Shown piece by piece: positions 44,234 through 58,678 of a stretch of DNA of 64,000 nucleotides. The notes below the pieces were generated by a model. The model was not told the origin of the DNA. It saw only the letters and a list, made by a program, of their open reading frames with translations, and ran no database searches. This stretch comes from Bacillus sp. EB01 (GTDB lineage: Bacteria > Bacillota > Bacilli > Bacillales > Cytobacillaceae). Within the stretch, counting starts at the first letter, position 1, and each line of letters opens with the position of its first letter. Location of the stretch: assembly GCF_000613125.1 (NCBI RefSeq), contig NZ_HG964497.1, positions 3,893,976 through 3,957,975 of the forward strand, read 5' to 3'. A program made the position numbers and the translations under genes.

Positions 44234-44362
44234 TCCAAAAAACAAAGAAGCCTGAGAAAAAACTGTAAAAACAGTTTCTCCCAGGCTTTTATCCTTCCGT
44301 GACACAGCAAGCTGTGAGTTTTCTCTCGGACCAGACCAACAGCAAGTTGCGGAACCCTAGAA
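44234..44362 (-). ncRNA. Guanidine-I (ykkC) riboswitch with intrinsic terminator
   Basis: Reading the minus strand: CTAGGGTTCCGC, then GGTCTGGTCCGAGAG and CACGGAAGG, all hallmark ykkC-motif segments (plus coordinates 44291-44362). It is followed by a terminator stem AAGCCTGGGAGAAACTG with CAGTTTTTTCTCAGGCTT (44247-44285) and a T-rich tail. Guanidine binding is known to favour the open form of the expression platform. Sits 30 nt before gdnC. Confidence 0.95.
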
Positions 44363-44389
44363 AACATTTTTAATATACAATTATTTTTA

Positions 44390-49095: not shown

Positions 49096-49563
49096 TTGGA
49101 AACTTCGTTGCAAGTAGGGGACCAAGCACCTGATTTTTCCCTTTCTGCCACAACAGCAGAAAAGGTATCTTTATCGGACTACCAGGGGAAGAAGAATGTG
49201 GTTGTCGCTTTTTATGGCATGGATTTCACACCGGGCTGACTGAAAGAACTGACCTCTTGGAAAGAGGAATACAAACGTTTTGAAGAACTTGATGCAGAAG
49301 TGCTTGCGATTAGCGTCGACCACATCCACTCTCATCGTGTGTTTGAGGCAAGTCTTGGAACACTACCATATCCACTGTTATCCGACTGGTTTAAAGCGAC
49401 TACGAAGGATTACAATGTTTTTAATGACCACGGACAGGTTGCCAAGCGATCCGTATTTGTTGTTGATAAACATGGAGCAATTACCTATACGAACACATCA
49501 TTCAATGCTGACAAGAAAGAAGACTACGAAGCTGTATTCGAAGAACTCGGTAAGTGTCATTAA
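49096..49563 (+). CDS. Selenocysteine peroxiredoxin (in-frame TGA at peroxidatic position)
   Basis: 155 residues when the TGA at 49237-49239 is read through (codon 48). The frame is open before (METSLQVGDQAPDFSL..) and after (LKELTSWKEEYKRF.., LAISVDHIHSHRVF) in the same register. The context FYGMDFTPG-U-LKEL matches the AhpC/TSA/BCP active site DFTPGC, so TGA stands exactly where the catalytic cysteine belongs. TTG start with TAAGGAGG. A stem-loop sits 13 nt after the TGA. Reduces hydroperoxides. The only cysteine is near the C-terminus (GKCH). Standard annotation would break the gene into pieces. Sec reading is inferred; sel genes must be elsewhere. Confidence 0.85.
49237..49267 (+). promoter_or_regulatory. 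Candidate bacterial SECIS element
   Basis: TGA at 49237-49239, then 13 nt, then a stem CCTCTT (49253-49258) with AAGAGG (49262-49267) and a GGA loop. Distance and apical guanines fit bacterial selenocysteine insertion hairpins read by SelB, although the loop is tight. Confidence 0.65.
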
Positions 49564-55365: not shown

Positions 55366-55516
55366 TAAAAAAGGTGCATTCTCTTAATCTATAAAGAAAG
55401 AAGAGAATGCACCTGGTTACGTTTGTCCCTTGTGGCGATCTAACTTTCCTTATAGTCCGGCACTTTACGGATGCCAGGTAGAGACTTTTGGACCATATTT
55501 CCAAAAATATATAAGG
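55366..55516 (-). ncRNA. Purine riboswitch, guanine class, with terminator
   Basis: On the minus strand, P1 CCTTATA (55510-55516) pairs with TATAAGG (55448-55454); inside lie ATATGG, the conserved GTCTCTACC and the GGACTATAAGG 3' end. The C before TAT is the guanine-specific position (U in adenine riboswitches). A terminator stem follows: 14 bp AAGAGAATGCACCT (55401-55414) with AGGTGCATTCTCTT (55372-55385), then TTTTTT. Known members switch transcription off on guanine/hypoxanthine binding. Confidence 0.93.
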
Positions 55517-55538
55517 ATCGTATGAAGTTGATTTTTGA

Positions 55539-57915: not shown

Positions 57916-57949
57916 GGCGAATAGTCCGAACCGGATTATCGCCTTTTTT
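57916..57949 (+). terminator. Rho-independent terminator
   Basis: GGCGAATAGTCCG (57916-57928) with CGGATTATCGCC (57932-57943) then TTTTTT. Confidence 0.9.
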
Positions 57950-58027
57950 ATTTACAGATAATTAGGCTCAACAACCCAATTCCGCTGACATACTATACTT
58001 CGAATAGAGTATAGGCGAGGTGTGTAA

Positions 58028-58627
58028 ATGCAATTTTCAAACAATCAGGAACAGCCATTAAAGGCACAATTATCCACGCAGGCACCGACGTTCAAAGCAG
58101 ATGCTTATGATACCCTGGAAAAGACAATAAAACAGATAAGCTTGGACAACTATCGCGGAAGCTGGGTGATTTTGTTTTTCTACCCAAGCGACTTCACATT
58201 TGTCTGACCAACCGAGCTGGCAGCGGTCGCTGCCATTTATTCCGAGCTTAAGACCCTCAATACCAATGTTCTGGCAATCAGTACGGACAGTGTGTATTCG
58301 CATAAAGTGTTTGCCGAAACGTCACCTTCACTTTCAAAAGTGACCTACCCGCTTGTCAGCGACAGGACACATTCCATTAGTAAAGCGTACCAGGTACTAA
58401 ATGAAAAAACTGGAGCTGCTTATCGGGCAACAATTATTATTGATCCGGAAGGGAAAATAGTCGGAAGGTTTATCAACCCTTCTGAAGTGGGCCGTAATTC
58501 TTATGAAATTCTCAGGCTCATTTATGCATTACAATTCGCTAGGCAAACAGGCAAGGGAGTCCCAGCAAACTGGATGCCAGGAAATGCTGGAATTGATCGA
58601 GACCCAAAGAATATCGGAAAAATTTAA
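58028..58627 (+). CDS. Selenocysteine peroxiredoxin of AhpC type (in-frame TGA)
   Basis: 199 residues with the TGA at 58205-58207 read as residue 60. The frame is open on both sides: it begins MQFSNNQEQPLKAQLSTQAP and goes through FFYPSDFTFV-U-PTELAA, the exact AhpC/Prx1 active-site signature FTFVCPTEL with Sec for Cys. The second half (AISTDSVYSHKVF, ATIIIDPEGKIVGRF, PANWMPGNAGI) is a complete AhpC C-terminus. The resolving cysteine of typical AhpC (EVCPANW) is replaced by Val (GVPANW), and no other cysteine exists. ATG 58028 behind GAGGTG. Reads as a one-Sec peroxidase using an external thiol. Confidence 0.88.
58205..58234 (+). promoter_or_regulatory. Bacterial SECIS element
   Basis: TGA at 58205-58207, 11 nt, then a perfect 6-bp stem GGCAGC (58219-58224) with GCTGCC (58229-58234) and loop GGTC. 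The 11-nt spacing and GGTC loop are those of the Escherichia coli fdhF SECIS hairpin bound by SelB. It lies inside the coding sequence. Confidence 0.85.
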
Positions 58628-58644: not shown

Positions 58645-58678
58645 GGTGCATATTTCTGAAAGGAAAATGCACCTTTTC
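58645..58678 (+). terminator. Terminator of the AhpC-type gene
   Basis: GGTGCAT (58645-58651) with ATGCACC (58667-58673), then TTTTC. The surrounding block recurs at 60905-60960 (TTTTTCCAGCGGTG..CTGAAAGG..AATGCACC). The rest of 58679-59030 has no gene I can support. Confidence 0.75.

Follow-up and report, generated by a model that had tools for sequence, protein, structure and literature searches.

A predicted selenocysteine peroxiredoxin of the AhpC type without any cysteine in Bacillus sp. EB01

Can an AhpC-type peroxiredoxin work when TGA stands at its peroxidatic cysteine codon and no cysteine codon is left elsewhere in the frame, and what would recycle such an enzyme? The gene that raises this question lies in a 64,000-nucleotide stretch of DNA from Bacillus sp. 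EB01 (the window), where a frame of 199 residues followed by a TAA stop contains a single in-frame TGA (Table 1). The first-pass annotation had recognized the AhpC signature FTFV-TGA-PTEL with TGA in place of cysteine, and the frame, which reads FFYPSDFTFV-TGA-PTELAAVAA around codon 60, bears this out. We consider it likely that the TGA is decoded as selenocysteine (Sec) and that the cysteine-free product reduces peroxides through one selenol that is recycled by a separate thiol.

Table 1. Positions of the peroxiredoxin gene, its key codons and its flanking elements in the window
Feature	Position	Strand	Basis or remark
Intrinsic terminator after upstream DUF2935 gene	57916..57943	+	z -4.3; T run next
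Conserved upstream block TTAGGCTCAA..CATACTATA, probable promoter	57962..57997	+	14/65 upstream regions
Imperfect palindrome CTATACTTCGAATAGAGTATAG ahead of ribosome-binding site	57993..58014	+	meaning uncertain
AhpC/Prx1-type peroxiredoxin gene, predicted selenoprotein	58028..58627	+	199 codons; Pfam and AlphaFold model
Lys12 codon replacing the N-terminal Cys of relatives (QPFCAQ to QPLKAQ)	58061..58063	+	alignment of relatives
In-frame TGA, peroxidatic codon, residue 60, predicted selenocysteine	58205..58207	+	conservation in relatives
Bacterial SECIS-type hairpin, 7 bp, TGGCAGC-GGTC-GCTGCCA	58218..58235	+	covariation; absent from 44 Cys relatives
Val178 codon replacing the C-terminal resolving Cys (VCPANW to GVPANW)	58559..58561	+	alignment of relatives
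Intrinsic terminator after peroxiredoxin gene	58645..58673	+	z -3.4; TTTTCT next

The product belongs to the peroxiredoxins by domain, fold and active site. Pfam AhpC-TSA (PF00578) matched it at 128.8 bits against a gathering cut-off of 26, and 1-cysPrx_C also exceeded its cut-off (23.1 bits); no glutathione peroxidase (GPx) family was among the Pfam matches. The motif PxxxTxxU is present (P53, T57, U60) together with E63 and R133, which we take to be the catalytic partners of the peroxidatic residue; both are invariant in 34 aligned rows, and P53 varies among relatives. The AlphaFold model has a mean pLDDT of 92.5, and the solved folds nearest to it are typical 2-Cys peroxiredoxins, including a Salmonella AhpC variant with its resolving cysteine changed to alanine. 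None of the 12 NCBIfam matches reached its curated cut-off, the AhpC equivalog TIGR03137 scoring 166.8 bits against 272 and the archaeal-type models PRK13189 and PRK13191 scoring 123 against 211 and 98.2 against 374. The C-terminal VCPxxW of typical 2-Cys peroxiredoxins is likewise absent, KGVPANW standing at the resolving site.

A stop codon occupies the peroxidatic site in 36 of the best 80 of 144 relatives drawn from genome_contigs, and it is TGA in every one of the 36, never TAA or TAG, while the remaining 44 carry TGT or TGC. Among genomes of the same family, the gene was found in 96 of 193 at E <= 1e-40, giving 99 matches that all contain an in-frame TGA; since the ordinary AhpC of the EB01 genome (8.2e-35) falls below this line, the result means that no cysteine form of the group was found above it. 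All 29 other same-family loci that we opened have TGA at the identical codon. In a 98%-identical orthologue from a second genome (L107), the codon equivalent to 60 is TGA. An in-frame TAA or TAG also falls inside the aligned stretch of 8 of the 99 family matches, and these are probably the normal ends of shorter genes, as seen in L131, the sole one opened. Named TGA relatives are mostly Bacillaceae, and Sec relatives occur outside the Bacillaceae as well. In all eight sister pairs compared, pN was well below pS both before and after the TGA, indicating purifying selection on both sides of it.

The machinery for Sec decoding is complete in the EB01 genome (5.28 Mb, single contig). The first-pass annotation had proposed a search for sel genes and had named a genome lacking Sec machinery as fatal to its reading; we found a tRNA-Sec (65.2 bits, cut-off 47; anticodon tca by ARAGORN) and SelA (572 bits), SelB (358.6 bits) and SelD (399.5 bits), each of the three proteins above its curated cut-off. 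The selD gene (L104, G000:C1:1138168-1139094) has one in-frame TGA of its own; selA is about 0.6 kb away. Across the family, SelB was detected in 170 of 193 genomes, and the peroxiredoxin gene in 93 of these 170 vs 3 of the 23 without SelB (Fisher p 2e-4, kinship ignored). Two of those three genomes are 66% complete, and the third is 94% complete in 720 contigs; 77 of the 170 SelB genomes are without the gene.

Downstream of the TGA, the locus encodes a hairpin that begins 10 nt past the codon, with its GGTC loop beginning 17 nt past it. The first-pass annotation had placed a GGCAGC/GCTGCC stem with this loop 11 nt after the TGA, which is indeed the position of the GGCAGC core, and had likened the structure to the SECIS of E. 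coli fdhF. That likeness holds for the loop only: the fdhF element has a GGUC loop and a bulged U in its stem, whereas the stem here is unbroken. Folded as a single sequence the hairpin is weak, the z-score being -0.90 when 66 nt are folded and -1.53 when 46 nt are. The comparison between related strains that had been suggested proved far more telling, with the hairpin kept through compensatory changes at third codon positions. In an alignment of 37 sequences, 36 of them distinct, covering 8 pairs including the loop-closing pair, standard pairing was found in 99.3% of pair cells and two-sided changes in 4 of the 8 pairs; the pairs that carry the signal fall at third codon positions, with G-C/A-T/G-T at one and G-C/A-T/C-G at the loop-closing pair. 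The covariation score was 0.346, and none of 500 shuffles reached this score, the share of standard pairs or the two-sided changes, though 10 of 500 matched the number of further pair types. When the register was slid, 94.0% of cells still paired at -3 and 74.3% at +3, but the covariation scores of 0.132 and 0.199 fell below that of the true register.

The hairpin also separates the two forms of the gene. All seven stem pairs are present in 34 of 36 Sec relatives and six in the other two, whereas the maximum among the 44 Cys relatives is five, reached once; mean fold energy is -12.1 kcal/mol at Sec loci vs -4.2 kcal/mol at Cys loci. Right after the TGA, the hairpin region encodes the peptide TELAAVAA in 35 of 36 Sec loci, a peptide that none of the 44 Cys loci has. 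Elsewhere in the gene, the pS of the window copy against each of the 16 relatives listed ranges from 0.61 to 0.97. The locus thus combines the genomic features of a bacterial selenoprotein gene, and the case for Sec as the peroxidatic residue rests on an in-frame TGA conserved at a redox cysteine site, a conserved and covarying downstream hairpin, and a complete Sec machinery. We conclude from these genomic comparisons that TGA60 is almost certainly read as selenocysteine.

Two other readings of the codon meet the same evidence. Gene finders list the downstream piece alone, here a frame of 111 residues, and a length of 136 aa is very often seen among the 120 matches listed, as would be expected if the TGA were a true stop that leaves either a pseudogene or a peptide of 59 residues plus an independent 111-residue product starting from GTG 58292; with TGA in 36 of 36 stop-bearing relatives, a covarying hairpin, selection on both sides and Sec machinery in the genome, this is highly improbable. 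We rejected the pseudogene on TGA conservation, purifying selection and hairpin covariation. That the codon is read as tryptophan is next to impossible: W does appear at the site in public translations (15 of 18 full-length matches fetched), but the contigs behind these 15 are 594 to 5433 bases long and the W may reflect the gene finder's choice of code, TGA is the ordinary stop of 5 of the 28 long frames in the window, tRNA-Sec is present, and the hairpin would be without purpose. This reading was rejected on TGA conservation, selection, hairpin covariation and the use of TGA as a stop elsewhere.

The same ambiguity marks the public record of the family. The nearest named protein, from Bacillus sp. 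FJAT-18017, is 97% identical and survives as a 130-aa remnant, and public entries of relatives are of two sorts: remnants of 130 or 136 aa whose start lies beyond the TGA, and versions with Trp at the TGA, seen in 15 metagenome entries from short contigs. Because many entries begin after the TGA, the selenoprotein gene is hidden in databases.

If TGA60 is selenocysteine, the distribution of cysteines decides how the enzyme could turn over. The first-pass annotation had inferred that the resolving cysteine is replaced by valine, and alignment with Cys-type AhpC confirms its loss at V178. This is a property of all the Sec relatives compared: the C-terminal VCPxxW cysteine is absent from 36 of 36 Sec loci, which mostly have GVPANW, while only two Desulfobacca rows among the 44 Cys loci are without it. 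The same annotation also held that the protein has no cysteine at all, and the frame contains zero Cys codons, but in this it is atypical, as most relatives hold an N-terminal cysteine. This residue lies 46-48 residues ahead of Sec, in QPFCAQ or VFCAxRDD, in 28 of 36 Sec relatives and in 28 of the 29 same-family loci opened, several of which seem to come from genomes identical or nearly identical to some in the 36-locus set. The cysteine-free state looks derived, because most relatives keep the N-terminal cysteine and the lysine that replaces it, Lys12, is shared with L107. Five of the 36 Sec loci are also cysteine-free from the chosen start codon (L031, L035, L036, L039 and L041). Of the Sec forms with the N-terminal cysteine, many have an extra one five residues ahead of it and some a cysteine at another place, which makes the term one-Cys protein inexact for them.

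On a tree of the family, a branch with support of 98/94 sets 51 of the 52 Sec rows apart; the alignment behind the tree includes the N-terminal Cys column, and 15 of its rows are translations taken from public databases, in which W stands at the site. Rows without the N-terminal cysteine need ten changes on this tree, and by our reading of it the residue was lost at about six places in the Bacillaceae part. The remaining Sec row, L081 (TGA), groups with Desulfobacca Cys forms, which suggests that Sec and Cys were swapped at least once more, although the long branches L079, L081 and L088 with L086 are flagged as possible false joins. L079 and L088, Desulfobacca-type Cys AhpC proteins, are without the C-terminal resolving cysteine, and L081 is their near neighbour; perhaps a further, independent exchange of Cys and Sec took place here, in a lineage that has no resolving cysteine.

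The frequency of the N-terminal cysteine in both sets of loci and the absence of the C-terminal one from 36 of 36 would also fit a Sec family of two-residue peroxiredoxins whose resolving cysteine has shifted to the N-terminal arm, 46 to 48 residues ahead of Sec, with the window protein having lost its partner and now working badly, in another way or solely within mixed oligomers. We regard this as possible but lean against it, given that the cysteine is missing in several separate lineages while Sec stays. Because those lineages kept Sec when the N-terminal cysteine was lost, this cysteine does not appear to be essential.

We therefore return to the single selenol recycled from outside, for which a plausible cycle can be drawn. 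SelB and the Sec-tRNA(UCA), both components being encoded in the genome, would read UGA60 with the aid of the conserved hairpin. Judging from the fold and the conserved residues, Sec60, placed beside Glu63 and Arg133 in the PxxxTxxU pocket, would then attack the peroxide and become a selenenic acid. An internal selenosulfide would be impossible in a protein with neither the C-terminal resolving cysteine nor the N-terminal cysteine of its relatives, and because there is no internal partner an outside thiol would resolve Sec60. This thiol, supplied either by bacillithiol together with bacilliredoxin or by thioredoxin, would form and then clear a mixed selenosulfide. Bacillithiol would be a good candidate reductant because the EB01 genome encodes both the bacillithiol synthase BshC (575.7 bits) and two proteins of PF06491, which we take to be the bacilliredoxin family; plausibly, then, bacillithiol/bacilliredoxin or thioredoxin recycles the Sec enzyme. 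The genome also holds a conventional ahpC with both cysteines (L090), followed on the same strand by what is by eye an AhpF-like frame, and since this two-Cys ahpC is present the Sec enzyme is an addition rather than a replacement.

Conserved neighbours do not name the thiol donor. In a search for an electron-donor gene that covered up to 3 kb to either side of each locus, or 5 kb for the window gene, and counted ORFs of at least 70 aa, no ORF family is common to more than 15 of 37 loci, and none of the neighbour ORFs judged by eye is reductase-like. At Mesobacillus-group loci, two ORFs after the gene are by eye cytochrome bd subunits. The neighbourhood bears equally on the idea that read-through depends on selenium and that the gene is a selenium sensor, yielding a short peptide when selenium is scarce. 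Such behaviour would follow from Sec decoding in general, but we found no evidence for it and no shared neighbour gene points there, so we hold it to be very unlikely.

The gene is probably transcribed alone, because terminators flank it and the gene upstream encodes a DUF2935 protein; the downstream terminator was not flagged by a pattern scan. Between the upstream terminator and the start codon lies a conserved block of the pattern AATAGGCTCAAT..GGACAAA..ACATACAATA with near-fixed spacing, shared by the window and 13 other loci, the regions compared including the same or near-identical genomes. From its conservation and position, this block is a probable promoter. In most copies it ends in CATACAAT, which to us resembles the -10 element of sporulation sigma E, and the block may possibly serve a sporulation sigma factor. 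The palindrome that overlaps its end is absent from 36 other upstream regions compared, and recurs, altered at one position, in the near-identical L107.

Elsewhere in the window we detected a second peroxiredoxin gene with TGA, at 49096-49563 on the forward strand (155 residues; PF00578, 116.8 bits), with the codon at 49237-49239 in DFTPG-TGA-LKEL; 13 nt past this codon begins a hairpin, CCTCTT/AAGAGG, that is weak at -6.0 kcal/mol. A guanidine-I riboswitch (44276-44371) and a purine riboswitch (55433-55534) lie on the reverse strand.

These results show a predicted selenoprotein gene to be common in one Bacillaceae-type family, its Sec form occurring in half of the genomes sampled. They also provide a natural series, from Sec with an N-terminal cysteine to Sec alone, that allows a direct test of the role of the resolving thiol in selenoperoxidases and bears on whether bacillithiol can serve as glutathione does for mammalian GPx. 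A bolder and rather doubtful account would have a selenium-dependent AhpC branch lose its C-terminal cysteine, move it N-terminally and then drop it here and in several lineages, leaving a cysteine-free selenoperoxidase fed by bacillithiol. If true, bacteria would have their own equivalent of glutathione peroxidase, with a peroxiredoxin fold as its base.

GPx is a selenium enzyme that needs an outside thiol, and the window protein resembles it and the 1-Cys peroxiredoxins of the Prx6 type in having one redox-active residue with the same need; it differs in scoring below the archaeal-type peroxiredoxin cut-offs and in matching no GPx Pfam family. With AhpC and the typical 2-Cys peroxiredoxins (TIGR03137) it shares the AhpC-TSA domain, the FTFV-x-PTEL site and the closest solved folds, but has TGA for the peroxidatic codon and no resolving cysteine. 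PrxU (NF040737), a thioredoxin-dependent peroxiredoxin that we take to be the selenocysteine peroxiredoxin of Eubacterium acidaminophilum, reportedly described by Sohling in 2001, is likewise a peroxiredoxin whose peroxidatic residue is Sec, with the motif PxxxTxxU. The product of the window gene, however, is without any cysteine and scores 164.3 bits against the curated 270, so it is not a PrxU equivalog.

Sec peroxiredoxins, an AhpC with UAG-Sec and one relative annotated across its TGA are thus already known. Sec peroxiredoxins are an established kind with the peroxiredoxin motif TxxU (PMC9312934, PMC13188914), also given as PxxxTxxU (PMC13188914), and an AhpC selenoprotein with a UAG-Sec codon is reported from Blastococcus saxobsidens, which has an active-site Sec and a bacterial SECIS after the codon as here, but UAG where the window gene has UGA (PMC5330540). 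The literature we searched, to which subscription papers contributed little, gave no mention in the portions seen of a Bacillaceae Sec-AhpC group, its loss of the C-terminal cysteine, its N-terminal cysteine or its cysteine-free members. The closest annotated counterpart is the 'peroxiredoxin' WP_225003809.1 of Cytobacillus spongiae, whose gene RefSeq gives as one 597-base CDS across the TGA: it is 65% identical, with TGA at the same site and the same hairpin core, and differs from the window protein in having kept the N-terminal cysteine (PFCAQ).
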